This document shows positions 15,737 to 37,934 of a DNA stretch of 64,000 bases, piece by piece. The stretch's first letter is position 1. Every line of letters starts with the position of its first letter. The translations under genes and the position numbers were made by a program. Under the pieces are notes generated by a model. It did not search any database and had not been told where the DNA came from. It worked only from the letters and a program-made list of their open reading frames with translations. This stretch comes from Pseudomonas sp. R4-35-07 (GTDB lineage: Bacteria > Pseudomonadota > Gammaproteobacteria > Pseudomonadales > Pseudomonadaceae): positions 1,178,001 to 1,242,000 of the forward strand of contig NZ_CP027732.1 in assembly GCF_003852235.1 (NCBI RefSeq), in the 5' to 3' direction.

Positions 15737-16631
15737 TTCAACCGCAACACGCTGTGGCTATGTTGCCATCGTCGGCCGCCCGAACGTGGGCAAGTCCACG
15801 CTGCTGAACCACATCCTCGGCCAGAAGCTCGCGATCACCTCGCGCAAGCCGCAGACCACCCGCCACAATATGCTGGGCATCAAGACCGAAGGCAACGTGC
15901 AAGCGGTCTATGTGGATACCCCTGGCATGCACAAAGGCGGCGAAAAAGCGCTTAACCGCTACATGAACAAGACCGCTTCGGCGGCGTTGAAAGACGTCGA
16001 CGTGGTGATCTTCGTGGTTGACCGCACCAAGTGGACCGACGAAGACCAGATGGTCCTCGATCGTGTGCAGTACGTCACCGGCCCCTTGATCGTCGCGCTG
16101 AACAAGACCGACCGCATCGAAGACAAAGCCGAGCTGATGCCGCACCTGAGCTGGCTGCAGGAGCAACTGCCAAACGCCCAGATCATGCCGATCTCGGCGC
16201 AGCACGGCCACAACCTCGAAGCCCTGGAACGCGTGATTGCCGGCTACCTGCCGGAGAACGAGCATTTCTTCCCGGAAGATCAGATCACCGACCGCAGCAG
16301 CCGCTTCCTCGCCGCCGAACTGGTGCGCGAGAAAATCATGCGCCAGATGGGCGCCGAGCTGCCGTACCAGATCACCGTTGAAATCGAAGAGTTCAAGCAG
16401 CAGGGCAAAACCCTGCACATTCATGCCTTGATCCTCGTTGAGCGTGACGGCCAGAAGAAAATCATCATTGGCGACAAGGGCGAGCGCATCAAGCGCATCG
16501 GCACCGAGGCGCGCAAGGACATGGAATTGCTGTTCGACTCCAAGATCATGCTTAACCTGTGGGTGAAGGTTAAGGGTGGCTGGTCCGATGATGAGCGTGC
16601 GTTGCGCTCCCTCGGCTACGGCGACCTGTAA
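15729..16631 (+). CDS. era: GTPase Era
   Basis: A 300-residue GTPase needed for maturation of 16S rRNA and the 30S subunit. Seen: P-loop GRPNVGKST, switch and G3 DTPGMHKG, G4 NKTD, and a C-terminal KH domain ([24 protein letters not shown]) that binds the 3' end of 16S rRNA. Two ATGs lie at 15723 and 15729. GGAGA at 15718-15722 abuts the first but is six bases from the second, so [11 protein letters not shown] is preferred. It overlaps the rnc stop by eight bases. rnc-era-recO is a conserved operon. Confidence 0.96.
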
Positions 16632-16650
16632 GCACACCGCAGGGCTGAAA

Positions 16651-16741
16651 ATGTGGGAGGGGGCTTGCTCCCGATAGCGGTGGGTCAGTTAACAAATAAG
16701 TGACTGACAGACTGCCATCGGGGGCAAGCCCCCTCCCACAT
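16651..16741. repeat. REPIN (GTGGGAGGGGGCTTGC family)
   Basis: Inverted REP arms in the usual form, between era and recO. It interrupts an otherwise tight operon, so read-through or a separate recO promoter must be assumed. Confidence 0.9.
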
Positions 16742-16773
16742 TAGGTTTATGTTGTTTTCAAGATCGAGAACCC

Positions 16774-17463
16774 ATGTCCCCAACCCCACCCCCCAGCCAG
16801 CTCGCCTACGTCCTGCATAGCCGCGCCTACCGTGAGACCAGCGCGCTGGTGGACTTCCTCACGCCTCAAGGTCGCTTGCGCGCGGTTTTGCGCAGTGCGC
16901 GGGGCAAGGCCGGTACGTTGGCGCGGCCCTTCGTGGCGCTGGACGTGGAGTTTCGTGGCAAGGGCGAGTTGAAGAACGTGGGCCGCCTGGAAAGCGTTGG
17001 CACCTCTGCCTGGCTCAATGGCGATGCGCTGTTTAGCGGGCTCTATCTCAATGAGCTGCTGATCCGCCTGTTGCCCGCCGAAGACCCGCACCCGGCGGTC
17101 TTCGATCACTACGCCGCCACCTTGCTCGCCCTCGCTGAAGGCCGTCCTTTGGAGCCGCTGTTGCGCGCCTTTGAATGGCGCCTGCTGGATGACCTGGGCT
17201 ACGGTTTTGAACTGCACAACGACCTGCACGGTGATCCCGTCGCCGCCGACGGCATGTACCGCCTGCAAGTAGACGCAGGCCTTGAGCGTGTGTACTTGTT
17301 GCAACCCGGTCTGTTCCAGGGCACCGAACTGCTGGCGATGAGCGAGGCGGACTGGACTGCCCCCGGCGCCTTGTCCGCCGCCAAGCGCCTGATGCGCCAG
17401 GCCCTGGCCGTGCACCTGGGCGGACGGCCGCTGGTCAGTCGCGAGTTGTTTCGAAAGCCCTGA
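16774..17463 (+). CDS. recO: DNA repair protein RecO
   Basis: A 229-residue RecO. With RecF and RecR it loads RecA on SSB-covered gaps and anneals strands. The N-terminal OB fold is visible ([34 protein letters not shown]), followed by the helical domain with [12 protein letters not shown]. Length fits the family (about 230-240). The start [17 protein letters not shown] has an unusual proline-rich tail. It lies between era and pdxJ as in most Gammaproteobacteria. Confidence 0.94.
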
Positions 17464-17514
17464 CATCCCCGTGTATGCTGTGCACCGATTCTTTCCCTTT
17501 TCAGGAGCGCTTCC

Positions 17515-18258
17515 GTGAGCACCAGCAATCGCATTCTTCTTGGCGTCAACATCGACCACGTCGCCACCCTGCGCCAGGCCCGGGGCACCCGTTACCCTGA
17601 CCCGGTCAAGGCTGCGCTGGACGCCGAAGAAGCGGGCGCCGACGGCATCACCGTGCACCTGCGCGAAGACCGCCGCCACATCCAGGAGCGCGACGTGTTG
17701 CTGCTCAAGGACGTGCTGCAGACCCGCATGAACTTCGAAATGGGCGTCACCGAGGAAATGATGGCGTTCGCCGAGCGCATCCGCCCGGCGCACATTTGCC
17801 TGGTGCCGGAAACCCGCCAGGAACTCACCACCGAGGGCGGCCTTGACGTCGCGGGCCAGGAAGCGCGAATCAAGGCTGCCGTGGAGCGCCTGTCGAAGAT
17901 CGGCAGCGAAGTGTCATTGTTCATCGATGCTGACGAGCGCCAGATCGAAGCCTCGCGCCGCGTCGGCGCGCCAGCGATCGAGCTGCACACCGGTCGCTAC
18001 GCCGATGCCACCACGCCGACCGAAGTGGCCGAGGAGCTGCAACGCATCATCGACGGTGTGAACTGCGGCCTCACTGAAGGCCTGATCGTCAACGCCGGCC
18101 ATGGCCTGCACTATCACAACGTCGAAGCCGTGGCCGCGATCAAGGGCATCAACGAACTGAACATCGGGCATGCGCTGGTGGCTCACGCGCTGTTCGTCGG
18201 GTTCAAAGGCGCCGTGGCCGAGATGAAGGCGCTGATTCTGGCGGCTGCCAGGACCTGA
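17515..18258 (+). CDS. pdxJ: Pyridoxine 5'-phosphate synthase
   Basis: A 247-residue TIM-barrel enzyme that condenses 1-deoxyxylulose 5-phosphate with 3-amino-2-oxopropyl phosphate, the last ring-forming step of vitamin B6 synthesis. Family landmarks: [17 protein letters not shown], the active-site HLREDRRHI, and [11 protein letters not shown] near the C-terminus. The GTG start at 17515 has AGGAG seven to eleven bases before it. It is the last gene of the lepA-to-pdxJ run and is followed by a REPIN. Confidence 0.96.
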
Positions 18259-18292
18259 GCGAACACGCTATAGAACCCAATGCATATCAAAA

Positions 18293-18384
18293 ATGTGGGA
18301 GGGGGCTTGCTCCCGATAGCAGGGTGTCAGTCAGTACATATATTGACTGATCCACCGCTATCGGGAGCAAGCCCCCTCCCACAT
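18293..18384. repeat. REPIN (GTGGGAGGGGGCTTGC family)
   Basis: Inverted REP arms with TTGCTCCCGAT / ATCGGGAGCAAG inner ends. It lies between pdxJ and the multicopper oxidase gene. Confidence 0.9.
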
Positions 18385-18508
18385 TGGGACCCCAGTGAAT
18401 TGTAGAATTGCACCATGCGGCAATGCGAACCCTTACTGTTTAGCCCGCGCAGGTGTATCGTATCTGCCCTTTGCGGGCCCTGGCCTGCGACCGATACGTG
18501 AGGTTGTT

Positions 18509-19891
18509 GTGTCCCAATCGTTTTCCCGTCGACAGATCCTCGGTGGCCTTGCCGGCCTGGCCGTCGTAGGTGTGGGCGCCGGTGGCGCCTACCGCTACTG
18601 GCTGGGCAAGGTTGCCGATGCCAACGCAGGAAGCGACTACCAACTGATCGCCGCGCCGCTCGATGTGGAACTGGTGCCGGGCCACACCACCCAAGCCTGG
18701 GCGTTCGGCCCTTCTGCACCGGGCGCCGAGCTGCGCGTACGCCAGGGCGAATGGCTGCGGGTGCGCTTTATCAACCACCTGCCGGTCGCCACCACCATCC
18801 ACTGGCATGGCATCCGCCTGCCGCTGGAAATGGACGGCGTGCCCTACGTCTCGCAATTGCCGGTATTGCCAGGGGAATACTTCGACTACAAGTTCCGCGT
18901 GCCCGACGCCGGCAGCTACTGGTACCACCCCCATGTGAACAGCAGCGAAGAACTCGGCCGTGGCCTGGTCGGGCCGTTGATCATCGAAGAGCGCGAGCCC
19001 ACCGGTTTCAAGCACGAACGCACCCTCAGCCTGAAAAGCTGGCACGTGGATGAAGAGGGCGCCTTCGTGGCGTTCAGTATTCCCCGCGAGGCGGCGCGTG
19101 GCGGTACGGCAGGGCGGTTGTCCACCATCAACGGCGTGGCCCAGGCGGTGATCGACCTGCCGGCCGGGCAGATCACCCGCGTGCGCCTGCTCAACCTCGA
19201 CAACACCCTGACTTATCGCCTCAACATCCCGGATGTCGAAGCGCAGATCTACGCGCTGGACGGCAACCCCATCGAGCCGCGCCCGCTGGGCAAGGAATAC
19301 TGGCTGGGCCCTGGGATGCGTATTTGCCTGGCCATCAAGGCGCCGCCAGCGGGCGAAGAGCTGTCGATCCGCAATGGCCCGGTGCGTCTGGGTACGTTCC
19401 GCTCGGTGGCCAATACCGACGCGCCGAGCGAATGGCCGCCCGCATTGCCGCCCAACCCGGTTGCCGAACCGGACCTGGCCAATGCGGAAAAACTCAACTT
19501 CAATTTCGAGTGGGTCGGCTCGGTGTCGGTCAACGTCGACAACGGCAAGCCACCGAGCTTGTGGCAGATCAACGGCCAGGCCTGGGACATCACCGACAAA
19601 ACCTGCGCCGACCGCCCGATCGCCAAGTTGGAGAAGGGCAAAAGCTATATTTTCGAATTGAAGAACATGACCCAGTACCAGCACCCGATCCACCTGCACG
19701 GCATGAGTTTCAAGGTGATTGCCTCGAACCGCCACAAGGTCATCCCGTATTTCACCGACACCTACCTGCTGGGCAAGAACGAACGCGCCCGCGTGGCGTT
19801 GGTGGCGGATAACCCGGGGGTGTGGATGTTCCACTGCCATGTGATCGACCATATGGAAACCGGCCTGATGGCCGCCATCGAGGTGGCGTGA
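18509..19891 (+). CDS. Tat-exported multicopper oxidase
   Basis: A 460-residue laccase/CueO-like multicopper oxidase. The GTG at 18509 with GTGAGG (18498-18503) gives a Tat-type signal, SRRQILGGLAGLAVVGVG, so the folded protein is probably periplasmic. All copper motifs are present: HWHG, WYHPH, HPIHLHG and HCHVIDHMETG, the last with the type 1 ligands and a Met axial ligand. Likely roles are copper or metal-ion oxidation and copper tolerance; the substrate cannot be read. Its stop overlaps the tadA start (TGATG), an odd coupling of a periplasmic oxidase to a tRNA-editing gene, probably accidental. Confidence 0.9.
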   Translation: MSQSFSRRQILGGLAGLAVVGVGAGGAYRYWLGKVADANAGSDYQLIAAPLDVELVPGHTTQAWAFGPSAPGAELRVRQGEWLRVRFINHLPVATTIHWHGIRLPLEMDGVPYVSQLPVLPGEYFDYKFRVPDAGSYWYHPHVNSSEELGRGLVGPLIIEEREPTGFKHERTLSLKSWHVDEEGAFVAFSIPREAARGGTAGRLSTINGVAQAVIDLPAGQITRVRLLNLDNTLTYRLNIPDVEAQIYALDGNPIEPRPLGKEYWLGPGMRICLAIKAPPAGEELSIRNGPVRLGTFRSVANTDAPSEWPPALPPNPVAEPDLANAEKLNFNFEWVGSVSVNVDNGKPPSLWQINGQAWDITDKTCADRPIAKLEKGKSYIFELKNMTQYQHPIHLHGMSFKVIASNRHKVIPYFTDTYLLGKNERARVALVADNPGVWMFHCHVIDHMETGLMAAIEVA

Positions 19892-26160: not shown

Positions 26161-27150
26161 TCAGCTGATTTTGTGGAGGTAGGCCGGCAATGGCTGCTCG
26201 GGCAGTACCGAGAGCACCTTCAAGCGCTGCAACATTCGCTGCCGCGCCCGTTGCAGGTGCTCGCGCAGGTTCAGCGCGGCCGCATCGAAAGCGCCATGGA
26301 GCAAAAGCTCCAGGATCAGGCGATGTTCGGCGAGCATGGCCGGATCGGCGCCGATTCCCAGCAATCGATGGAAAATCCGACTGATGATCATCGGGCTCTG
26401 GCCCTGGCGGATCAGCGCGGCGATCTTGCGGTTCTGCAGGCCGGCCAGGCAGCGCTGGTGCAAGTCCTCTTCGATCTGCTCGATGGCTTCCAGGCTGCAT
26501 TGCGGGTTCTGCTGGGCCGCCGTGACCCGCTGCAACATGGCTTCGAGGAGTTCCCGGTCGAGGCCCGGCGCGCTCTGGCGAAGGGCCTCGGGTTCCAGGC
26601 AGGCGCGCAGTTCGTAGTCTTCGGTGACTTCCCGCGCGGTCAACGGCCCGGCCAACCATTGGGAGTAGGGCTCTTTCTCCACCAGGCCACGGTCGCGCAG
26701 GCGCATCAGCGCTTCGCGGACCACGGCGCGGCTGACGCCGTAGTGGTCGGCGGCGGCTTGTTCGTCCAGGCGGTAATGGCCAAAGGCGATGCAGGTGGAC
26801 AGCGCCGCACCGATTTCCTCGACGATCCGCTCGCCCAGGGGCCGGGTGTCCACCAGCTCGTCGTCGCCGTTGAGGCCCAGGTGTGCGTGGCTCAGGGGCA
26901 GGCGCAGCGGCTCCACGGCCAGGCCTTCGGGATTGATCAGGTAGCCACGGCCGTTGAAGCGGCAGATCAGGCCCTCATCGTGCAGCAGGTCCAGCGCCTT
27001 GCGCACCGGCACGCGGCTGGTGCCGAACAGCTCGGCCAGCGGCGCCTCCAGCAGCACAAGCCCGTGGCGCGCGGTGCCGTTGACGATTGCATCACGCATC
27101 ACCTTGTGAATCATCGCGTAACGGGATGCCGGGGCGGACACTGGTTTCAT
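26161..27150 (-). CDS. GntR-family repressor with two winged-helix domains and an FCD domain
   Basis: A 329-residue regulator, longer than the usual 220-250 for FadR-type GntR proteins. The first winged helix is at about residues 10-72 (PLAELFGTSRVPVRKALDLLHDEGLICRFNGRGYLIN), the second at about 105-170 (LDEQAAADHYGVSRAVVREALMRLRDRGLVEKEP). The FCD ligand-binding domain follows (DYELRACLEPEALR to the C-terminus, metal-ligand-like His in EHRLILELL). It is divergent from the amidase operon, with 344 bp between them that carry two long-spaced inverted repeats, its likely operators. The inducer is presumably the imide or amide substrate or a product. Confidence 0.87.
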   Translation of the reverse strand: MKPVSAPASRYAMIHKVMRDAIVNGTARHGLVLLEAPLAELFGTSRVPVRKALDLLHDEGLICRFNGRGYLINPEGLAVEPLRLPLSHAHLGLNGDDELVDTRPLGERIVEEIGAALSTCIAFGHYRLDEQAAADHYGVSRAVVREALMRLRDRGLVEKEPYSQWLAGPLTAREVTEDYELRACLEPEALRQSAPGLDRELLEAMLQRVTAAQQNPQCSLEAIEQIEEDLHQRCLAGLQNRKIAALIRQGQSPMIISRIFHRLLGIGADPAMLAEHRLILELLLHGAFDAAALNLREHLQRARQRMLQRLKVLSVLPEQPLPAYLHKIS

Positions 27151-27284
27151 CTGCTTCTCTGGGTCATGAGTGCTAGGGCGTGACGATGGCCGGGGATTCT
27201 CTCATAGATGGGCCTGTCACTCCGCGCCACGTCGGTGGCACTTTTTTGGGGCCTTTGGCGCAGGACTGTTACTTTTTGCACCAA

Positions 27285-27311
27285 AATGTATTTATTCATC
27301 AAAGATACATT
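27285..27311. promoter_or_regulatory. Inverted repeat, possible regulator site (distal)
   Basis: AATGTAT (27285-27291) and ATACATT (27305-27311), perfect arms with a 13-bp spacer, in the gap between the GntR gene and the amidase operon. Confidence 0.5.
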
Positions 27312-27428: not shown

Positions 27429-27443
27429 TGGCACGAAAGCTGC
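27429..27443 (+). promoter_or_regulatory. Sigma-54 type promoter of the amidase operon
   Basis: TGGCACG-AAAG-CTGC. The GG (27430-27431) and GC (27442-27443) doublets have the exact spacing of the -24/-12 consensus TGGCACG-N4-TTGC. Transcription would start near 27455, inside the palindrome at 27448-27482. A TGCACCA half-site like those bound by NtrC is present around 27278. Confidence 0.6.
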
Positions 27444-27447
27444 CTCT

Positions 27448-27482
27448 ATAAAACGTACATTTTATAAATATATACGTTTTAT
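27448..27482. promoter_or_regulatory. Operator-like inverted repeat at the amidase promoter
   Basis: ATAAAACGTA (27448-27457) and TACGTTTTAT (27473-27482), perfect 10-bp arms with a 15-bp AT-rich spacer. It overlaps the expected transcription start and ends just before the ribosome site GAGGTG of the amidase gene. Confidence 0.65.
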
Positions 27483-27494
27483 GAGGTGATCTTC

Positions 27495-28826
27495 ATGTCA
27501 GACTCCACGTCAATGGCCGAAGCGTTCGCCACCGGTCGCAGCGACCCGGTGCAAGTGCTCGAACAAGCGCTTGCCCGCGCGAGCACGGCGCCCAGCGTGT
27601 TCATCTCGCTGTGCACCGAGCGTGCCTTGCGTGAGGCGCAAGCGTCCGCCGCGCGCTGGCGTGCCGGTCAGCCGCTGAGTGTGTTCGACGGCGTGCCCCT
27701 GGCCTGGAAGGACTTGTTTGACGTGGCCGGCAGCATCACCACCGCAGGCGCCGCTTATCGCCGCGAGGCGCCAGCCGCTTTGCTTGATGCGCCAAGCGTG
27801 GGGCTGTTGTGCCGCGCCGGGATGGTCAGCGTGGGCAAGACCAACCTCAGTGAGCTGGCGTATTCGGGCCTGGGCCTGAACCCGCATTTCGGCACGCCTC
27901 ACAACCCCAACAGCAGCGACCAGCCGCGGATTCCCGGCGGTTCTTCATCGGGTTCGGCCGTGGCGGTGGCGGCTGGGATTGTGCCGATTGCCATGGGCAC
28001 CGACACCGCTGGCTCGATCCGCATTCCCGCCGCCCTGAATGGCGTGGTGGGCTACCGCAGTAGCTGCCGCCGCTACAGCCGCGACGGCGTGTTTCCATTG
28101 GCGCGCAGCCTTGACAGCCTCGGCCCGCTGGCCCGCAGCGTGCGTGATGCCCTGGTCATCGACGACCTGCTCCACGGCCGTGCGCACACCCATATCGCTC
28201 GCAGCCTGAAGGGCCAGCGTTTCGTGCTCGAGCAAGGCGCGCTGGAAGGCATTGAACCGGCAGTGCGCAATAACCTGCTGCGCGCGGTGGACCAACTCAA
28301 GGCTGCCGGTGCGTTGATCGACCTGCGCCCCTGCGCCGCCTTCCAGGCCGCCCTCGACCTGATCCGGCAACACGGCTGGCTCGGCGCTTTCGAAGCCTTC
28401 GCCCTGCACCAGGCCCTGCTCGACAGCCCTGACGCCGAGCAACTCGACCCTCGCGTACGCCGCCGCCTCGAAGCCGCGCGCGGCTTGCCAGCCAGCCAAC
28501 TGATCCACCTGACTGACGCCCGCAGGCGTCTGCAGAACCAACTGAGCGACGACCTCGACGGCGCTCTGCTGATCACCCCGACCGTCGCCCACGTCGCCCC
28601 GGCGCTGGCGCCGCTGGAGGCCGACGACGAATTGTTCGTCAGCACCAACCTGGCGACTCTGCGCCTGACCATGCCCGGCAGCCTGCTCGACATGCCGGGC
28701 GTCAGCCTGCCCAGCGGCCGCGATGCCCTGGGCCTGCCCACCGCGCTGCTACTCAGCGCCCCTAGTGGCGAAGACGCGCGCCTGCTCAGGGCCGCGCTGT
28801 CGGTCGAAACCGCCCTCAACCCTTAA
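27495..28826 (+). CDS. Amidase-signature hydrolase, probable half-amidase
   Basis: A 443-residue amidase-signature enzyme hydrolysing a C-N amide bond. The catalytic triad can be read: Lys72 in PLAWKDLF, cis-Ser150 in GGSSSGSA and nucleophile Ser174 in DTAGSIR; the Ser-Ser spacing of 24 equals that of other family members. An in-frame GTG lies at 27486, but the ATG at 27495 has GAGGTG at the right distance. First gene of the island operon, followed after 11 bases by an imidase-like gene. In known cyclic imide pathways an amidase-signature half-amidase cleaves the half-amide made by imidase, so that is the proposed role. Confidence 0.85.
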
Positions 28827-28837
28827 GGAGACACACC

Positions 28838-29716
28838 ATGGCTAAAGACATTCTCTGTGCATTTGGCGTCGACGTTGACGCCGTCGCCGGCTGGCTCGGT
28901 TCCTACGGCGGTGAAGACTCGCCGGACGACATCTCCCGCGGCCTGTTCGCCGGTGAAATCGGCGCGCCGCGCCTGCTCAAATTGTTCGAGCGCTACGGCC
29001 TGCGCACCACCTGGTTTATCCCCGGCCACTCGATGGAAACCTTTCCCGAGCAGATGAAGGCCGTGGCCGACGCCGGCCACGAAATCGGTGTGCATGGCTA
29101 CAGTCACGAAAACCCCATCGCGATGACCGCCGAGCAGGAAGAAATCGTCCTCGATAAATCCATCGAACTGATCACCCAGGTCACCGGCAAGCGCCCCACT
29201 GGCTACGTCGCGCCGTGGTGGGAATTCAGCAAAGTCACCAACGAGCTGCTGCTGAAAAAAGGCATCAAGTACGACCACAGCCTGATGCACAACGACTTTC
29301 ACCCTTACTACGTGCGCAAGGGCGACAGCTGGACCAAGATCGACTACAGCCAGCACCCCGACACCTGGATGAAACCCCTGGTGCGCGGCGAGGAAACCGA
29401 CCTGGTGGAAATCCCGGCCAACTGGTACCTCGACGACCTGCCGCCGATGATGTTCATCAAGAAAGCCCCCAACAGCCACGGCTTCGTCAACCCGCGTCAC
29501 CTGGAAGAAATGTGGCGCGACCAGTTCGACTGGGTCTACCGCGAGCATGAACACGCGGTGTTCACCATGACCATCCACCCCGACGTGTCCGGCCGCCCGC
29601 AAGTGCTGCTGATGCTTGAGCGTTTGATCGAACACATCCAGAGCCATGCCGGCGTGCGCTTCGTCACCTTCGATGAAATCGCCGACGACTTTATCCGCCG
29701 TCAACCCCGCACCTGA
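28838..29716 (+). CDS. NodB-fold hydrolase, probable cyclic imidase (HpPgdA-like)
   Basis: A 292-residue polysaccharide-deacetylase-fold protein with no signal peptide. Metal ligands by motif: Asp14 in FGVDVDA, and His86 and His90 in HGYSH; these numbers match those I recall for the zinc site of H. pylori HP0310. Also seen: APWWEFSK and the final H-containing [12 protein letters not shown]. The family includes cytoplasmic cyclic imide hydrolase of P. putida (about 293 residues) besides peptidoglycan deacetylases. The cytoplasmic location and coupling to an amidase and a transporter favour imidase (imide to half-amide). An alternative is a ureide or allantoinase-like PuuE enzyme. Confidence 0.8.
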
Positions 29717-29724
29717 CCCGAACC

Positions 29725-29840
29725 CTGTAGGAGCGAGCTTGCTCGCGAAGAACCCATGAGCGCCGCGTGCATCCAGACTGCCCGCGTCGTCATTGACGAT
29801 TTTCGCGAGCAAGGGCTAGCCGCCCGCCTCGCTCCTACAG
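29725..29840. repeat. GTAGGAGCGAGC-family repeat
   Basis: Starts CTGTAGGAGCGAGCTTGCTC and ends CTCGCTCCTACAG. An extra GGCTAGCCGCCCGC-like stretch interrupts the right arm. It lies between the imidase-like and MFS genes. Confidence 0.85.
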
Positions 29841-29871
29841 AAAGCCCACTCCACCTCCCGAGGCGCGCTCC

Positions 29872-31212
29872 ATGTCTATCTACAACAAGCTTGACCTGAC
29901 TGGCTGGAAACCCCGGCAACTGACGTCCCAGGAAGTGCGCTTCGCCACCTGGATCGCGTTCTTTGCCTGGGTGTTCGCGGTGTATGACTTCATCCTGTTC
30001 GGCACCCTGCTGCCGGAGATCGGCCGGCACTTTGGCTGGGGTGAAGTGGAGCAGGCGCAAATCGCGACCTGGGTGGCGGTGGGCACGGCGGTGGTCGCGT
30101 TCGCCATTGGTCCCGTCGTCGATAAACTGGGGCGCCGCCAGGGGATTATTCTGACCGTGGCCGGCTCCGCACTGTGCTCGGCGCTCACCGCGATTGGCGG
30201 GGCGTGGGGCAAGTCGCCGCTGATCCTGATTCGCTCGCTGGGTGGCTTGGGGTATGCCGAGGAAACCGTCAATGCGACGTATCTGAGTGAGCTGTACGGC
30301 GCCTCGCAAGACCCGAGACTGACCAAGCGTCGCGGCTTCATCTACAGCCTGGTACAAGGCGGCTGGCCGGTCGGGGCCTTGATCGCGGCGGGGTTGACCG
30401 CGCTGCTGCTGCCGATTATCGGATGGCAGGGCTGCTTCGTCTTCGCCGCGATCCCGGCCATTGTGATCGCGATCATGGCGCGCAAGCTCAAGGAGAGCCC
30501 GCAGTTCCAGATTCACCAGCGCATCAGCCAACTGCGTAAACGCGGTGCGGTGAGCGAGGCGCAGAACGTCGCCGTGACCTACGGCGTGGATTATGACGAA
30601 CACAGCAAGGCCGGCCTCAAGGCCGCATTCCGGGGCCCGGCGCGGCGCGCCACCCTGGTGATCGGCGCCGCGCTGTTGCTCAACTGGGCGGCGATCCAGG
30701 TGTTCAGCGTGCTGGGCACCTCGGTGATCGTCAGCGTGCACCACATCTCGTTCGAGAACTCGCTGATCATCCTCGTGCTGTCGAACCTGGTGGGCTATTG
30801 CGGGTACCTCAGCCATGGTTGGATGGGCGACAAGATCGGGCGGCGCAACGTGATCGGCCTGGGCTGGATGCTCGGCGGCCTGGCATTCGCCGGGATGCTG
30901 TTCGGCCCGAGCAACATGCCGATGGTAGTCGGGCTGTACAGCCTGGGCCTGTTCTTCCTGATCGGGCCGTACTCGGCGGCGCTGTTCTTCATCAGCGAAA
31001 GCTTCCCCACCAGCATCCGCGCCACCGGTGGCGCGATCATCCATGCCATGGGCCCGATCGGCGCCGTGTTGGCCGGGTTTGGCGCCACCCAGGTGTTGTC
31101 CGCCGGCAGCGACTGGCAGACCGCCGCGCTGTGGTTCGGCGCGCTGCCGTGCTTCTTGTCCGGCGCGTTGATGTTTGCCGCGCGCCATGTGCGTCCGGAA
31201 ACCGTTCAGTAA
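29872..31212 (+). CDS. MFS transporter, probable uptake of the imide/amide substrate
   Basis: A 446-residue transporter of the major facilitator superfamily with twelve predicted helices. Family signatures: DKLGRRQG after helix 2 and [11 protein letters not shown] after helix 8 (the D-x-x-G-R-R/K loops), with the sugar/acid-symporter-like [11 protein letters not shown] in the second half. The central cytoplasmic loop (about 205-260) is long and charged. It resembles the metabolite:proton and aromatic acid symporter groups. The gene context suggests import of a small imide, amide or dicarboxylate. It is followed by an SDR gene after ten bases with AAGGAG. Confidence 0.88.
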
Positions 31213-31222
31213 GGAGTTCTTG

Positions 31223-31984
31223 ATGAACCGTAAAGTTGCCTTGATTACCGGTGCCGCCAGCGGCATCGGCCAAGCCCTTGCCGTGGCCTACGGGCGCAGC
31301 GGCGTGTCGGTGGTGGGCGGGTATTACCCGGCCGATCCCCATGATCCGCAAAGCACGGTTGCCCTGGTGGAAGCAGCCGGTGGCGAGTGCCTGATGCTGG
31401 CGCTGGACGTGGGCGACAGCGCCTCGGTGGATGCCATGGCCGAGCAAGCGGTGCAGCATTTTGGGCGCCTCGATTACGCGGTGGCCAATGCCGGCTTGTT
31501 GCGTCGCGCGCCGCTGTTGGAAATGAGCGATGCGTTGTGGGATGAGATGCTCAATATCGACCTCACGGGGGTGATGCGCACCTTCCGCGCGGCGACCCGG
31601 CATATGCGCGAAGGCGGCGCGCTGGTGGCGATTTCCTCGATTGCCGGCGGCGTGTATGGCTGGCAGGAACACAGCCACTACGCGGCGGCCAAGGCCGGGG
31701 TGCCGGGGTTGTGTCGTTCGCTGGCGGTGGAATTGGCGGCCAAGGGCATTCGGTGCAATGCAGTGATCCCGGGGTTGATCGAGACGCCGCAGTCATTGGA
31801 TGCGAAGAATTCACTGGGGCCTGAAGGGTTGGCCAAGGCTGCCAAGGCAATTCCCCTGGGCCGGGTAGGGCGGGCGGATGAAGTGGCGTCGCTGGTGCAG
31901 TTTTTGACCAGTGATGCATCGAGCTACGTGACCGGGCAAAGCATCATCATCGACGGCGGCCTGACCGTGCGCTGGCCTGACTGA
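31223..31984 (+). CDS. Short-chain dehydrogenase/reductase (first of two)
   Basis: A 253-residue classical SDR. Cofactor motif TGAASGIG near the N-terminus, NAG motif in ANAGLLRR, catalytic Ser in AISSIAGG and Tyr-x3-Lys as YAAAKAG; the C-terminal [15 protein letters not shown] is typical. The loop after the second strand, [12 protein letters not shown], lacks an obvious acidic NAD-specificity residue at the strand end, so NAD versus NADP is unclear. The ATG at 31223 with AAGGAG (31211-31216) is chosen over an upstream in-frame ATG inside the MFS gene. Substrate unknown; a hydroxy acid or ketone from the island pathway is likely. Confidence 0.87.
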
Positions 31985-31988
31985 CCAC

Positions 31989-32095
31989 GCTCGTTCCCAC
32001 GCTCCGCGTGGGAATGCATCAGCGTGACGCTTCGCGTCACAACAGCGGACGCAGAGCGTCCAAGGCGGCATTCCCACGCAGAGCGTGGAAACGAT
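31989..32095. repeat. CGTTCCCACGCTCCGCGTGGGAA-family repeat
   Basis: Contains CGTTCCCACGCTCCGCGTGG, GTGACGCTTCGCGTCAC, GGACGCAGAGCGTCC and ATTCCCACGCAGAGCGTGG, a set of nested palindromes. It fills the gap between the two SDR genes. Confidence 0.85.
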
Positions 32096-32111
32096 CAATG
32101 AGGAAATAAAA

Positions 32112-32861
32112 ATGAGCCTGTTGAATAACCGCCGCGCCGTCATCACCGGGGCCGGCAGCGGCATCGGTGCCGCCATTGCCCAGGCTTACGCGGTCGAGGG
32201 CGCTCGCCTGGTGTTGGCCGACCGCAACGCCGCGAGCCTGGCCGAAGTCGCGATCACCTGTCGCAACCTGGGCGCCGAGGTGTTCGAATGCTTGGCCGAT
32301 GTCGGTACCGTCGAAGGCGCCCAGGCCAGTGTCGACCGTTGCGTCGAGCACTTCGGCGGGATCGACATCCTGGTCAACAATGCCGGCATGCTGACCCAGG
32401 CGCGTTGCGTCGATCTCTCCCTCGAGATGTGGAACGACATGTTGCGGGTTGACCTCACCAGCGTGTTCATCGCCAGCCAGCGCGCCTTGCCGCATATGCT
32501 CGCGCAGCGCTGGGGGCGGATCATCAACGTCGCCTCGCAACTGGGCATCAAGGGCGGTGCCGAGCTGAGTCACTACGCGGCGGCCAAGGCCGGGGTGATC
32601 GGCTTCACCAAGTCCCTGGCCCTGGAAGTGGCCAAGGACAATGTGCTGGTCAACGCCATCGCCCCAGGCCCCATCGAAACCCCGCTGGTGGGCGGCATCA
32701 GCGACAGCTGGAAACGCGCCAAGGCCGCCGAACTGCCCCTGGGCCGGTTCGGCCTGGCGGACGAAGTCGCGCCCACCGCCGTGCTGCTGGCCAGTACCCC
32801 GGGCGGTAACCTGTTCGTCGGCCAGACCCTCGGCCCGAACGCCGGCGATGTCATGCCATGA
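32112..32861 (+). CDS. Short-chain dehydrogenase/reductase (second of two)
   Basis: A 249-residue classical SDR. Cofactor motif TGAGSGIG; LVLADRNAAS places an Asp at the end of strand 2, which favours NAD(H); NNAG; and the catalytic Tyr-x3-Lys as YAAAKAG. The serine position reads INVASQLG. The C-terminus is shorter and less canonical (NLFVGQTLGPNAGDVMP instead of the usual TGQ-x-DGG). The ATG at 32112 follows GAGGAA. Only about a third identical to the first SDR by eye, so not a recent duplicate. Next gene starts 13 bases later. Confidence 0.86.
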   Translation: MSLLNNRRAVITGAGSGIGAAIAQAYAVEGARLVLADRNAASLAEVAITCRNLGAEVFECLADVGTVEGAQASVDRCVEHFGGIDILVNNAGMLTQARCVDLSLEMWNDMLRVDLTSVFIASQRALPHMLAQRWGRIINVASQLGIKGGAELSHYAAAKAGVIGFTKSLALEVAKDNVLVNAIAPGPIETPLVGGISDSWKRAKAAELPLGRFGLADEVAPTAVLLASTPGGNLFVGQTLGPNAGDVMP

Positions 32862-32874
32862 GCGGGGCTTAGCC

Positions 32875-33177
32875 ATGTGCGGACTCTGCGGCCTGCTCGG
32901 CGAAGACCTGCATTGGAGCGACCCCTTGGGCAATGCACTGCCCAGGCGCCGCGAGCGCCTGCGCCGGATCGCGGCGATCAACCAGGTGTTGGCGGTGTTT
33001 CGGCTCAAGGTCGAGGATTTCCAGGGCGCGTCGTACCTGTTGCTCGGCGCGACCGGCAAACAGGCCCTGGCCAGCGGCCTGGATCAACTCTGGCAGGCGG
33101 CCGAAACCATGCTTGGCCGCCCGCTGGACCCCCTTGACCCGCGTCTACTTGACCACCTGGAAAACACCCCACTGTAG
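32875..33177 (+). CDS. 100-residue protein starting MCGLCG, function unknown
   Basis: A small cytoplasmic protein beginning MCGLCGLLGED, with Cys2 and Cys5 (C-x-x-C); the rest has no cysteine. A basic stretch RRRERLRR follows at about 24-31, then a helical body. The start resembles the MCGI/MCGL beginning of class II glutamine amidotransferases, whose Cys2 becomes the N-terminal nucleophile, but the protein is far too short for that fold. It lies between an SDR and a COG0523 GTPase. A thiol pair next to a metallochaperone suggests metal binding; this is inference. The stop codon TAG (33175-33177) lies inside the following repeat. Confidence 0.75.
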   Translation: MCGLCGLLGEDLHWSDPLGNALPRRRERLRRIAAINQVLAVFRLKVEDFQGASYLLLGATGKQALASGLDQLWQAAETMLGRPLDPLDPRLLDHLENTPL

Positions 33178-33273
33178 GAGCGAGCTTGCTCGCGAAAAAC
33201 GTCAACGCTAACGCGTGTTGTCTGGATGTACGTGGCGCTCTCGGGTTTTTCGCGAGCAAGCTCGCTCCTACAG
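33172..33273. repeat. GTAGGAGCGAGC-family repeat
   Basis: CTGTAGGAGCGAGCTTGCTC at the left and GAGCAAGCTCGCTCCTACAG at the right, perfect inverted ends. Its first bases supply the stop codon of the preceding gene. Confidence 0.9.
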
Positions 33274-33288
33274 GGGGCGGAGGTAAAT

Positions 33289-34263
33289 ATGAGCATTGCC
33301 CTGAATGTGATCACCGGTTTCCTCGGCAGCGGCAAAACCACCTTGCTCAAGCGCCTGTTGCAGGGCGAAAGCCTGGGCGACACCGCATTGCTGATCAATG
33401 AGTTCGGCGATGTCGGCATCGACCACCTGTTGGTGGAGGAAGTCGCGCCAGACACCGTCCTGCTGCCGAGCGGCTGTGTGTGCTGCTCGATTCGCGGCGA
33501 GTTGAAAGACGCACTGCTCGGCCTGTTGCAACGCCGTGAACGCGGGGAAATCCCGGCCTTCAAACGGGTGATCCTGGAAACCACCGGCCTGGCCGACCCC
33601 GCGCCGATCCTTGCCACGCTGAACAATGACGTGCAACTGCGCGGGCGTTTTCATATCGGCCTGGTGATCACCCTGGTCGATGCCAGCCATGCCGCCTTGC
33701 AGGAACGCCTGCACCCGGAGTGGCTGGCCCAGGTGGCGGCGGCCGACCGGCTGTTGCTGAGCAAGACCGACCTGGTCGACGATTGCGCCGCGCTGCGCGA
33801 GCATCTGCACGCCCTCAACGGCGGTACGTTGATCCTCGATACCCAGGCGATTCACAGCGGCGATCAACTGCTGCTCGGCGAGGGCGTGCGCGGCACCGAG
33901 CCCGCCGTCGAGGTCAGTCGCTGGCAACTGCATCAACCCGCCACGGCCAACCACGGCGCGGCGCAGGTGTGCTGCCTGAGCTTCGAACAACCGCTGGACT
34001 GGGTCGGGTTCGGGGTGTGGTTGTCGATGCTGCTAAGATGCCACGGCGAACGAATCCTTCGCGTCAAAGGACTGCTCAACGTGAACGCAAGCTCGGCCCC
34101 CATCGTCATCCATGGTGTGCAGCACTGCCTGCATGCCCCGGTGCATTTGCCTGCCTGGCCAGGCACTGAGCGCCAGTCGCGCCTGGTGTTCATCCTGCGC
34201 GGCCTCGACCCCGCGCTGTTGCGCCGTTCCTTCGACGTGTTCGCGCGGCGGTTCGCGGCATGA
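33289..34263 (+). CDS. COG0523 (CobW-type) metallochaperone GTPase
   Basis: A 324-residue G3E P-loop GTPase. Walker A TGFLGSGKTTLL (residues 9-20), the family metal-binding C-x-C-C motif at Cys63, Cys65 and Cys66 (PSGCVCCSI), ETTGLADP and the base-recognition loop as SKTD. A CobW C-terminal domain follows. Such proteins deliver zinc, cobalt or iron to client enzymes. The subgroup cannot be fixed: no histidine-rich stretch is seen and no Zur box precedes it. The ATG at 33289 with GGAGG is clear. It overlaps the next gene by four bases (ATGA). Likely client: a metal hydrolase of this island. Confidence 0.88.
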   Translation: MSIALNVITGFLGSGKTTLLKRLLQGESLGDTALLINEFGDVGIDHLLVEEVAPDTVLLPSGCVCCSIRGELKDALLGLLQRRERGEIPAFKRVILETTGLADPAPILATLNNDVQLRGRFHIGLVITLVDASHAALQERLHPEWLAQVAAADRLLLSKTDLVDDCAALREHLHALNGGTLILDTQAIHSGDQLLLGEGVRGTEPAVEVSRWQLHQPATANHGAAQVCCLSFEQPLDWVGFGVWLSMLLRCHGERILRVKGLLNVNASSAPIVIHGVQHCLHAPVHLPAWPGTERQSRLVFILRGLDPALLRRSFDVFARRFAA

Positions 34264-35435
34264 TCACACTGCGCGTGCTCGGCACCTCCGTGACCTTGCT
34301 CGAATGCCTGCGCGTGCGGGCCGAGCAGGAGCTGGGCATTCGCCTGGTGTACCAGGTGCATGATGTGGAGCAAGCCCAGCGTATCGCGGTGATGCAGCCG
34401 GACAGCTACGACCTGTACGACCAGTGGTTCCACAACGTCGACTTCGTGTGGCCGGCGCGGGCGATCCAGCCGATCGACACGCGGCGCATCGCGCTGTGGC
34501 ATGAGATCAACGACCTGCCCAAGCGCGGTCGACTCTCGCCCAACGACCGCCTGGGCAGTGGCAGCGTGCCGAGTGAGCGGCTGTTCGTGCAGCACGACGG
34601 CAGCCTCGGCAGCAGCGCAACCGAGCGCATCAGCATGCTGCCGCTGACCCACAACGCCGACAGTTTTGCCTATCGCCCCGAGCGTTTGCCCGAAGGTTTC
34701 TGCCACGGCAACGAAAGCTGGGGCTGGCTGCTCGACCCGGCGTGGCGCGCGCGCACCGCCCTGCAGAGCGATGCCGCCATCGGTGCCCTGGATGCCGCGC
34801 TCGCTGTGCAGGGCGCGGGGCTGGCGCAGTTCCGGGACATTGGCAATATGAGCATCGAGGAGATCGACGTGCTGGCCGAGATCCTGGTGCGCAAGCAGAA
34901 GGAGGGGCACTTTGCGGCGTTCTGGTCGGACGATGAAGAAGCCGCGCAATTGATGCTCAGCCCGAGCATCGACATCCAGAGCCTGTGGTCGCCGACCTTG
35001 ATGCGCCTGCACCGTGCCGGGGTGAAATACCGGCTCGCCGTGCCGCGCGAAGGCTATCGCGCCTGGTTCGGCGGCTTGTCGTTGTCGCGCCATGCCCAGG
35101 GGCCGGTGCTGGATGCGGCCTATGCCTACCTGAATTGGTGGTTGTCCGGCTGGCCAGGGGCGGTGATGGCGCGCCAGGGTTACTACATCGGTAACCCGGC
35201 GCGTACCCGCGATCATCTGAGCAGCGCCGAGTGGGATTACTGGTACGCCGGCAAGCCTGCGCGTGAAGAGCTGTCGGGCAGCGATGGCTTGCCATTGATC
35301 GACATCGGCGAGGTGCGCGACGGCGGCTCCTATGAGCAGCGCATGGGGCACATTGCGGTGTGGAACTCGGTGATGGACGAGCACAACTACCTGGTGCGCC
35401 GTTGGGGCGATTTCATGCGCGCACGTTGCCTGTAA
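34260..35435 (+). CDS. Solute-binding-protein fold without signal peptide
   Basis: A 391-residue protein resembling periplasmic extracellular solute-binding proteins (family 1/PotD-like): MITLRVLGTSVTLLECLRVRAEQELGIRLVYQV at the start, then YDLYDQW and VWPARAIQPIDTRRI, and late VLDAAYAYLNWWLSGWPGAVMARQGYYIGNPARTRDHL. There is no signal peptide and no ABC permease or ATPase gene nearby. It is coupled to the COG0523 GTPase by a four-base overlap. It is either a cytoplasmic binding protein, an enzyme built on this fold, or a metal or substrate sensor. A strong terminator follows, so it ends the operon. Confidence 0.78.
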   Translation: MITLRVLGTSVTLLECLRVRAEQELGIRLVYQVHDVEQAQRIAVMQPDSYDLYDQWFHNVDFVWPARAIQPIDTRRIALWHEINDLPKRGRLSPNDRLGSGSVPSERLFVQHDGSLGSSATERISMLPLTHNADSFAYRPERLPEGFCHGNESWGWLLDPAWRARTALQSDAAIGALDAALAVQGAGLAQFRDIGNMSIEEIDVLAEILVRKQKEGHFAAFWSDDEEAAQLMLSPSIDIQSLWSPTLMRLHRAGVKYRLAVPREGYRAWFGGLSLSRHAQGPVLDAAYAYLNWWLSGWPGAVMARQGYYIGNPARTRDHLSSAEWDYWYAGKPAREELSGSDGLPLIDIGEVRDGGSYEQRMGHIAVWNSVMDEHNYLVRRWGDFMRARCL

Positions 35436-35463: not shown

Positions 35464-35503
35464 AAAAAAGGCGGCTACCCATCGGGTAGCCGCCTTTGTT
35501 TTA
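35464..35503. terminator. Bidirectional terminator between the island operon and gcd
   Basis: Perfect 14-bp arms AAAGGCGGCTACCC (35467-35480) and GGGTAGCCGCCTTT (35484-35497) with an ATC loop, A-tract before and GTTTT after. Serves two convergent genes. Confidence 0.92.
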
Positions 35504-35516
35504 CCGCCGGGTTTAC

Positions 35517-37934
35517 TTAATCCGGCAGTTTGAACGCCATTACGTAGTCACCCTGCTTGGTGCCCAGGGAACCGTGACCGCCGGCCATGACCAGCACGTA
35601 TTGCTTGCCGTCCTTGCCGGTGTAGGTCATCGGGGTGGTTTGCGCGCCTGCAGACAAGCGGCCTTCCCACAGTTGCTTACCGTTTTTCACGTCGTAGGCA
35701 CGCAGGTACTGGTCGAGGGTGCCGCTCAGGAACGCTACGCCACCTGCAGTGGTGAAGGTACCGCCCAGGCTTGGCACGCCCATGGTCAGCGGGATCGGAA
35801 CCGGCGAGCTGTCACGCACGGTGCCGTTCTTGTGCATCCAGATGGTTTGGTGGGTGGTCAGGTCGACCGCCGCCACGTAACCCCAGGCTGGTGCCTGGCA
35901 TGGCAGGCCCAGCGGCGAAAGCAGCGCTTCGAGGATCACACCATACGGCGCGCCTTTGTTCGGCTGTACGCCTTCGGTTTCGCTGACACGTGGGCCTTGC
36001 TTGGCGATGTCGGCGGCCGGAATCAGCTTCGATTTGAACGCCATGTAGCTCGGGTTCACGAAAGCGATCTGGCGGACCGGGTCAACCGAGATGCCGCCCC
36101 AGTCGAACACGCCGAAGTTGCCTGGGTACACGATCGAGCCTTGCAGCGACGGCGGCGTGAACGGGCCATCGTAGCGCATCGACTTGAAGTCGATCCGGCA
36201 CAGCATCTGGTCGAACGGTGTCACGCCCCACATATCGCGTTCTTTCAACGGCGGTGGCATGAAGTTCAGGTCAGACTTCGGCTGGGTAGGGGAGGTGCGA
36301 TCGCCGGCAACGGCGCCCTGTGGTACCGGGATTTCATTGATCGGCACTACCGGTTGGCCGGTGGCACGGTCCAGCACGTAGATGCTGCCTTGCTTGGTCG
36401 ATGCCATCACCGCTTGCTTGACGCCGTCAGCGGTCTTGATGTCGATCAGCGAAGGCTGGCCGCCCACGTCCATGTCCCAAAGGTCGTGGTGGGTGAACTG
36501 GAAGGTCCACTTCACGTGGCCGCTGTCGATGTCCAGGGCGGTCAGGCCGGCAGCGTATTTTTCGGAGTCATCGGTACGGTCGCCGCCGTACTGGTCGGGC
36601 ATCTGGTTGCCCATCGGCAGGTAGAGCATGCCGAGTTTTTCATCCACGGCGAACATGGACCACATGTTCGGCGAGTTGCGGGTGTAGGTCTTGCCCTCGG
36701 CCAACGGGGTGGTGTCGTCCGGGTTGCCGCTGTCCCAGTTCCACACCAGCTTGCCGGTGTGCACGTCGAACGCACGGATCACGCCGCTTGGCTCGTCGGT
36801 GGAGACGTTGTCGGTCACGTGACCGCCGATCACCACCAGGTTTTTGGTCACGGCCGGTGGCGAAGTGGAGTAGTAACCGCCCGGGGCGAAGGTGCCGATA
36901 TTGGCACGCAGGTCGACCTGGCCTTTGTCACCGAAGTCTTCGCACATCTTGCCGGTGTCGGCGTTCAGGGCGATCAGGCGGGTGTCTGCAGTCGGCACGA
37001 AGATGCGTTTCGGGCAGGCGGTCGGCGCGGCGGCCGGGCTGGCGCTACCGGTCGGGCTCTGCTCGGAGGCATAGGCGGCGTCATCGTGATACGACACGCC
37101 ACGGCAGGTCATGTGCGCCCAACCCTTGAAGTTCTCGGCACCCTGGGTGGTGATCTTCGGATCGAAACGCCAGATTTCCTTGCCGGTGTCCGGGTCCAGG
37201 GCAATCACTTGGCTGTGCGGGGTACACACGTACAGCATGCCGTTGACTTTCAGCGGGGTGTTTTCCGCAGTGGTCTCACCGGGATCGCCTGCGCCCGGAA
37301 TGTCACCGGTACGGAAGGTCCAGGCCGGCACCAGCTTGTGCGCGTTTTCCGGAGTGATCTGGGCCAGTGGTGAGTAACGGTCACCAAAGGCCGAACGGCC
37401 GTAGGAGTTCCAGTCGCCATCGGCTTGGGCAGGTGCAGCGCTGGCCATGCCAGGCACAGCATCGCGGTCCAGTTGGCCGGTCTTGACCATTTCGCCGGGG
37501 TTGGTGAATTGGCTGGCCAGGGCGGCAGCACCCGCCAGCACCACGGCCACGCTCAGGGCGCCGGTGCCCAGCGGCGCGGCTTGACCACGCAGCAACGGAC
37601 GGCGAAACCATGGCAACAACATGACGATGCCCAAGGCGAACAGCAGGGCCAGGCGCGGCACCAACTGCCACCAGTCCAAGCCGACTTCCCATAGCGCCCA
37701 CACCGTGCTGGCGAACAGCACCAATGCGTACAGGCCCAGCGCAGCGCGGCGGGTGGCCAGCAGCAAAACGCCGGTCAAGGTGATGCCGATACCGGCCAGC
37801 AGGTAATACAGCGAGCCGCCGAGCATGCTCAGCTTGACCCCACCGGCCAGCAAGGCCAGCCCCATGATCAGCAGCAAGACGCCTAGCAACCTGGGCAGCA
37901 GGCGGCTTGGGCTTGAGGCACCATCAGTGCTCAT
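35517..37934 (-). CDS. gcd: Membrane-bound PQQ-dependent glucose dehydrogenase
   Basis: An 805-residue quinoprotein that oxidises glucose to gluconolactone in the periplasm and passes electrons to ubiquinone. The first 150 residues hold five membrane helices (for example LLGVLLLIMGLALLAGGVKL). The rest is an eight-bladed PQQ propeller with the tryptophan-docking repeats (for example GDWNSYGRSAFGDRYSPLAQI, DPDTGKEIWRFDP, LDIDSGHVKWTFQFTHHDLWDMD). Length matches Gcd of other pseudomonads. The direct pathway it starts produces gluconate and solubilises phosphate. The upstream region has two inverted DnaA boxes and a 16-bp palindrome. Confidence 0.95.
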   Translation of the reverse strand: MSTDGASSPSRLLPRLLGVLLLIMGLALLAGGVKLSMLGGSLYYLLAGIGITLTGVLLLATRRAALGLYALVLFASTVWALWEVGLDWWQLVPRLALLFALGIVMLLPWFRRPLLRGQAAPLGTGALSVAVVLAGAAALASQFTNPGEMVKTGQLDRDAVPGMASAAPAQADGDWNSYGRSAFGDRYSPLAQITPENAHKLVPAWTFRTGDIPGAGDPGETTAENTPLKVNGMLYVCTPHSQVIALDPDTGKEIWRFDPKITTQGAENFKGWAHMTCRGVSYHDDAAYASEQSPTGSASPAAAPTACPKRIFVPTADTRLIALNADTGKMCEDFGDKGQVDLRANIGTFAPGGYYSTSPPAVTKNLVVIGGHVTDNVSTDEPSGVIRAFDVHTGKLVWNWDSGNPDDTTPLAEGKTYTRNSPNMWSMFAVDEKLGMLYLPMGNQMPDQYGGDRTDDSEKYAAGLTALDIDSGHVKWTFQFTHHDLWDMDVGGQPSLIDIKTADGVKQAVMASTKQGSIYVLDRATGQPVVPINEIPVPQGAVAGDRTSPTQPKSDLNFMPPPLKERDMWGVTPFDQMLCRIDFKSMRYDGPFTPPSLQGSIVYPGNFGVFDWGGISVDPVRQIAFVNPSYMAFKSKLIPAADIAKQGPRVSETEGVQPNKGAPYGVILEALLSPLGLPCQAPAWGYVAAVDLTTHQTIWMHKNGTVRDSSPVPIPLTMGVPSLGGTFTTAGGVAFLSGTLDQYLRAYDVKNGKQLWEGRLSAGAQTTPMTYTGKDGKQYVLVMAGGHGSLGTKQGDYVMAFKLPD

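Follow-up and report, generated by a model that had tools for sequence, protein, structure and literature searches.

A probable nitrogen-scavenging lactam or imide operon of Pseudomonas and the association of a COG0523 GTPase and a small CxxC protein with its predicted imidase

A described system close to the operon reported here, eight genes at 27495-35435 (+) of a stretch of 64,000 nucleotides (nt) from Pseudomonas sp. R4-35-07 (contig NZ_CP027732.1, positions 1,178,001 to 1,242,000; called the window below), is the nicotinate route of A. nidulans. There, the short-chain dehydrogenase/reductase (SDR) HxnW makes 3-hydroxypiperidine-2,6-dione, HxnM, which is 64.2% identical to a P. putida imidase, opens its ring, and the amidase HxnN frees ammonia (PMC9304392). 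Likened by description, the window encodes the same three enzyme types of this nitrogen-releasing route (SDR, imidase, amidase), so that HxnW, HxnM and HxnN, with the same three chemical steps, are a precedent for an SDR-imidase-amidase chain. The original prediction for this locus had held SDRs to be foreign to known imide pathways, which HxnW contradicts (PMC9304392). In contrast, the passages on hxn that we consulted mention no COG0523 protein, small CxxC protein or binding protein (PMC9304392), and no open reading frame (ORF) for a nicotinate- or pyridine-oxidising enzyme was seen by eye in 26-38 kb of the window. The Fe-type nitrile hydratase/Nha3 system also belongs to a nitrogen-releasing pathway and resembles the operon in that a COG0523 GTPase is encoded with one metalloenzyme client (PMC2770081, PMC9164220), but the client has another fold and the excerpts consulted describe no partner like the small protein of the window. 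A third system lies in H. pylori, whose HP0312 has been assigned to COG0523 (PMC2770081). The 22 H. pylori/H. acinonychis gene groups absent from H. cetorum (Table 5 of PMC3866246) include HP0309 as an N-carbamoyl-D-amino acid amidohydrolase, HP0311 as hypothetical and HP0312 as ATP-binding. With HP0310 placed between them by its number, the literature, as far as consulted, gives what looks like the order amidohydrolase, imidase, small protein, COG0523. HP0312 is a COG0523 protein, HP0309 an amidohydrolase, and the window imidase has a close relative in HP0310, but HP0310 is named a peptidoglycan deacetylase, the hydrolase is of another type, and HP0311 is likened by position only.

We know of no operon for the cyclic imidase of P. 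putida YZ-26. Through HxnM, this enzyme (AAY98498) very likely belongs to the same family as the window imidase. In the window, all eight same-strand ORFs with short gaps were confirmed as originally predicted; the gaps measure, in order, 11, 155, 10, 127, 13 and 111 nt, and the last two genes overlap by 4 nt. Gene order was counted in the best 80 of 473 genome stretches encoding a relative of the operon's binding protein (79 labelled Pseudomonas and 1 'Gammaproteobacteria bacterium'). The order amidase, imidase, major facilitator superfamily (MFS) transporter, SDR, SDR, MCGLCG protein, COG0523 GTPase, binding protein was complete in 68/80, so the cluster is not due to chance. Eight of the other 12 loci start after the missing genes, at contig ends, and four have no intact amidase while keeping the remaining operon: L046 retains a 25-codon remnant, L051 and L058 have no match, and in L077 the gene is broken. 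Other amidases may substitute in these four. L088 is one of the most distant of the 80; its imidase is 90% identical to that of the window, and its other genes and the regulator 63-81%.

Pfam assigned Amidase, Polysacc_deac_1, MFS, two adh_short, cobW with CobW_C, and SBP_bac_8 to the operon. The first gene (27495-28826, +) encodes an amidase-signature enzyme (PF01425, with NF004766 also above its cut-off), which we propose to be the half-amidase. The second (28838-29716, +) encodes a protein of the polysaccharide-deacetylase fold (PF01522), for which H. pylori HP0310 (3qbu) scored best among solved structures, with 539 bits over 291 residues. In HP0310, D14, H86 and H90 bind the metal, and D12 and H247 lie at the bound water (PMC3084791). 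All five residues are present in the window protein and did not vary in the alignment of 35 close sequences; imide hydrolysis is its predicted activity. Among characterised proteins of the fold, PuuE allantoinase comes next, and PuuE identity was rejected (TIGR03212, 88.1 bits against a cut-off of 424.6). The MFS transporter (29872-31212, +; PF07690) has an aromatic acid/H+ symport family as its nearest NCBIfam entry, under the cut-off, and the two SDRs (31223-31984, +, PF13561; 32112-32861, +, PF00106) gave generic FabG-type matches.

The sixth gene (32875-33177, +) encodes the MCGLCG protein, of 100 residues, which had no Pfam or NCBIfam match at E 0.01. M1, C2, C5, G6, H13, W14, G61, W73, D85 and L87 were invariant in 27 sequences, except that H13 is Gln in the Klebsiella locus L113. 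The structure model is confident apart from the CxxC head and gave no convincing match to a solved fold. At least 2409 relatives were found (7990 candidates scored), and no Pfam domain was present in the 120 relatives listed. The seventh gene (33289-34263, +) encodes a COG0523 GTPase of the CobW/YjiA type, with cobW (PF02492), CobW_C (PF07683) and the CxCC motif as CVCC; YjiA (1nij) was the only solved relative found. GTP hydrolysis and metal transfer are its predicted roles. In a tree for which the program gave a long-branch warning, the 30 operon copies formed one clade (97/98), apart from 3 of the host's 5 other COG0523 proteins. A CxxC head with a nearby His, encoded beside a GTPase metallochaperone, suggests metal hand-over, and we propose the MCGLCG protein as a co-chaperone and the GTPase as a metallochaperone of the imidase.

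Linkage of these two proteins to the imidase was examined in the window and 50 further loci. Six-frame translations of these 51 sources were scanned with the MCGLCG profile and with the imidase and COG0523 protein of the window. An imidase match was found in 41/51. It reached at least 450 bits in 35, and the MCGLCG protein and the COG0523 protein were both present in 35/35 of these, 13 of which had contributed to the profile and 22 had not. The COG0523 gene was the next one downstream of the MCGLCG gene, on the same strand and within 800 nt, in 35/35, and in 25/35 the MCGLCG gene lay no more than 800 nt after the imidase gene, in the same orientation; the other 10 have transporter genes, SDR genes or a divergent unit between the two. 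None of the six sources with weaker imidase matches (3 at 435-446 bits, 3 near 170) had either partner in the stretch searched. In a sample of 398 genomes of the phylum, 28 had an imidase match (E<=1e-20), 10 of them a close one (at least 65% identity), and the MCGLCG protein was found in 10 genomes, the same 10, of which 5 had fed the profile. Two orders were sampled more densely. In that of G717, 20 of 249 genomes had an imidase (E<=1e-80), and the MCGLCG protein was detected in 17 of the 19 examined (G889 was left out). In that of G144, an imidase was found in 5 of 250 genomes and the pair in 5/5.

Outside the genus, the gene set was modular, as judged from 40 genome stretches and from 10 of the 102 plasmid records that matched the imidase. 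An MFS transporter was found in Klebsiella L113, Paraburkholderia L115 and Acidiphilium L118, a PotABC-type ABC transporter with a periplasmic binding protein in Shinella L117, Thioclava L119, Rhizobium L120, Roseateles L121 and Agrobacterium L122, and an NCS1 transporter in Leisingera L116 and in one unit of Halomonas L114. SDRs and the binding protein were variable. Scored within the stretch examined around each locus, no SDR match was obtained in L101, L107, L108, L116, L131, L132, L134, L135, L140, L141 and L143. The leaderless form of the binding protein was present in 22/35 close-imidase sources and not seen in 13/35. The proposed gene-neighbourhood check on whether the last three operon genes are linked to the first five thus came out in favour of a link, for the pair in every close-imidase source and for the binding protein in these 22. 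The second hydrolase was an amidase in many loci; an asparaginase lay near the imidase in L119, L133, L138 and L141 (8 kb off), and L108 has an isochorismatase-fold enzyme, with an amidase as well 7 kb away. That unrelated primary-amide hydrolases occupy the same place supports a half-amide intermediate. Uptake and two-step hydrolysis of a cyclic imide, as originally predicted, fits these ammonia-releasing hydrolases and the kept active-site residues.

Altogether, these results point to a nitrogen-scavenging operon for a (hydroxy)lactam or cyclic imide, in which the COG0523 GTPase and the MCGLCG protein would be the imidase's metal-loading pair, a reading that we consider probable; gene content and order, the conserved residues, the linkage and the conservation of the promoter are its computationally shown parts. 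The MFS protein would import a small cyclic amide, and one or both SDRs would oxidise a hydroxyl group, giving or adjusting the cyclic imide. The cytosolic metal-dependent imidase would then open the ring to a half-amide, from which the amidase would release ammonia and a dicarboxylate, perhaps one like alpha-hydroxyglutarate; we infer substrate and reaction order alike. The GTPase and the CxxC protein would act as a pair dedicated to loading the imidase with its metal. Since the imidase is the only catabolic partner in all 35 sources and has a metal site, it is the simplest client of the GTPase. The additional metal-dependent step that had been suggested for the pathway is then superfluous: no added enzyme is needed, as the imidase itself has a metal site and is present in 35/35.

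Several observations weigh against this reading. Shared descent and operon transfer can inflate linkage, and 5 of the 10 genomes with both proteins belong to the window's genus. Two genomes of the order of G717, G863 and G980 (an 85% complete assembly), have imidases 62-64% identical to that of the window and lack the MCGLCG protein, and in G875 the MCGLCG gene is on a different contig from the imidase gene. Neither SDR particularly resembles any named enzyme of an imide pathway, and the fungal imidase is not known to need such helpers. The original assignment of HP0310, as a peptidoglycan deacetylase, came from work on extracts and mutants (cited in PMC3084791), and activity on chitin, chitosan, acetylated xylan and para-nitrophenyl acetate (pNP-acetate) was reported for it (PMC3688963).

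These last reports would make the window protein a cell-wall deacetylase, as HP0310, its best solved relative, is annotated (PgdA), with reported peptidoglycan and acetyl-xylan activity (PMC3084791, PMC3688963). We regard this as very improbable, since neither the window protein nor HP0310 has an export leader or signal peptide, the pocket of HP0310 is small, closed and buried, and no activity of HP0310 was found on the polysaccharide components tested or on the sugars, N-acetyl-polyamines, dipeptides and allantoin tried (PMC3084791). The operons moreover hold transporters and amide hydrolases, and fungal HxnM acts as an imidase (PMC9304392). The substrate might also be a cyclic ureide (hydantoin, dihydropyrimidine or similar), with the amidase cleaving an N-carbamoyl product. 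NCS1, the transporter type of L114 and L116, is a family of carriers for uracil, allantoin and related compounds. PuuE, the next characterised relative in fold, is an allantoinase, and HP0309 is annotated as an N-carbamoyl-D-amino acid amidohydrolase (PMC3866246). The TIGR03212 score, far under its cut-off (88 bits vs 424.6), the inactivity of HP0310 on allantoin (PMC3084791) and the asparaginases near the imidase, which indicate a primary amide, make a ureide rather improbable.

A further possibility, less improbable than these two and still unlikely in our judgement, is that the imide pathway is right and that the pair serves another client (the PotD-fold binding protein, an SDR or general metal homeostasis) and would be only co-regulated with the imidase. 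COG0523 proteins often take part in zinc homeostasis (PMC2770081, PMC9164220). In Halomonas L114, the pair sits with an NCS1 gene, an amidase and a binding protein, divergent from the imidase unit, and in the window, MFS and SDR genes intervene between pair and imidase. Contrarily, the pair is kept without the leaderless binding protein (13/35) and in at least 11 loci without an SDR match, and an imidase accompanies it in 35/35, which by elimination leaves the imidase as its client; the position of the MCGLCG gene within 800 nt after the imidase gene in 25/35 also argues for this.

Loading of the imidase by the pair, if correct, can be carried further, and we do so tentatively, on balance not expecting every part of it to hold. 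The COG0523 GTPase and the MCGLCG protein would form a dedicated two-part machine for metal loading of the imidase in several proteobacterial classes, HP0311 and HP0312 would be the same machine around HP0310, and the pathway would have a cytosolic partner in the leaderless PotD-fold protein. If so, PgdA, named a 'peptidoglycan deacetylase', would be an imidase of the cytosol that is loaded by chaperones and works together with HP0309, and a transporter part would have been converted into a cytosolic pathway partner. The pathway type is known chemistry, and we did not find an operon of this kind described in the literature. What is new is the link of the COG0523-MCGLCG pair to the imidase, a strong genomic association. 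Many COG0523 proteins have no known client (PMC9164220); a testable one is offered here by the genomic link to one metal hydrolase, which is nearly one-to-one. The same link proposes a first role for the MCGLCG family, of at least 2409 sequences and without a match here in Pfam or NCBIfam, suggests an alternative reading of the H. pylori enzyme, and defines a nitrogen pathway, likely under sigma54 control, in many Pseudomonas.

The last gene (34260-35435, +) encodes the binding protein, which matched SBP_bac_8 at 28 bits (cut-off 27) and whose PotD/PotF fold is supported by the structure model. Export leaders were judged by eye. The window protein begins a few residues ahead of the conserved core and has none, whereas its relatives in ABC operons carry leaders of the twin-arginine (Tat) type, and the original view of it as signal-free is borne out. 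No ABC permease or ATPase gene lies beside it, its neighbours being the COG0523 gene and a convergent gene, and the operon's transporter is an MFS protein. We infer that this leaderless relative of Tat-exported binding proteins would be a cytosolic ligand binder, acting as a buffer, a sensor or a partner. In L093, L094, L095 and L104, Tat-leader relatives adjoin long frames resembling sensor or signalling genes.

Upstream, a divergent GntR-type regulator (26161-27150, -) has two GntR-type helix-turn-helix (HTH) stretches ahead of an FCD domain, an unusual layout, and the operon has such a regulator beside it in the Pseudomonas loci and in many further ones. The stretch from this regulator to the amidase gene contains two sets of inverted repeats. 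Of 68 upstream regions extracted, 15 were aligned, and all 15 share TGGCA[C/T]G-N4-CTGC, with GG(-24)/GC(-12) elements kept, which we take to be a sigma54-type promoter. In the window it reads TGGCACG-N4-CTGC (27429-27444, +), invariant in the aligned rows, and is the top score on a simple matrix and the only such site in 64 kb. Scores of 20 or 21 of 21, at 71-108 nt upstream, were obtained for the window, L103, L105, L112 and L113, and those gammaproteobacterial operons of the MFS type that were scored carry the promoter. In the 17 remaining scored regions, among them the two Halomonas units and the ABC-type operons, the score did not exceed 17.5, which is background. The genome shows no enrichment of the strict sigma54 pattern by itself (10 matches vs 8 in the control), so that its conservation rather than the motif is the evidence for the promoter. 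Sigma54 fits nitrogen control and is not proof of it. An inverted repeat lies between promoter and start codon in the aligned regions; in the window (AAAACGTA...TACGTTTT, 27450-27480), it is a probable operator for the regulator. At 27277-27288, TGCACCAAAATG resembles half an NtrC site and is mostly retained in the aligned regions. A search of the window for a single exact Zur box string gave no match.

At the other end, the strong terminator that had been predicted was confirmed as a hairpin at about 35467-35497 (71-nt stretch, -34.8 kcal/mol, z -4.17). It was missed by a simple terminator scan, probably as its stem extends into the T tract. It sits between convergent genes, the neighbour being a pyrroloquinoline quinone (PQQ)-dehydrogenase-like ORF (35517-37934, -; by eye), and may thus act for both. 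Palindromes of the repetitive extragenic palindrome (REP) type were seen by eye in the three long gaps (29717-29871, 31985-32111 and 33178-33288). The term 'island' proved too strong, as no mobility gene was seen by eye among the ORFs listed in 24-40 kb, though relatives occur on plasmids. One is Klebsiella L113 (NZ_CP147633.1), with the whole operon on an IncF-type plasmid, and the imidase was found in five Klebsiella records. Biotin-dependent carboxyltransferase annotations stand next to or near the operon in L117, L118, L121 and L122, with pxpA in L118, and a link of these neighbours to 5-oxoproline or lactam use is possible. Finally, L116 has a second, distant polysaccharide-deacetylase-fold gene at 16426-18873, together with an amidase and a urea-carboxylase-associated gene.

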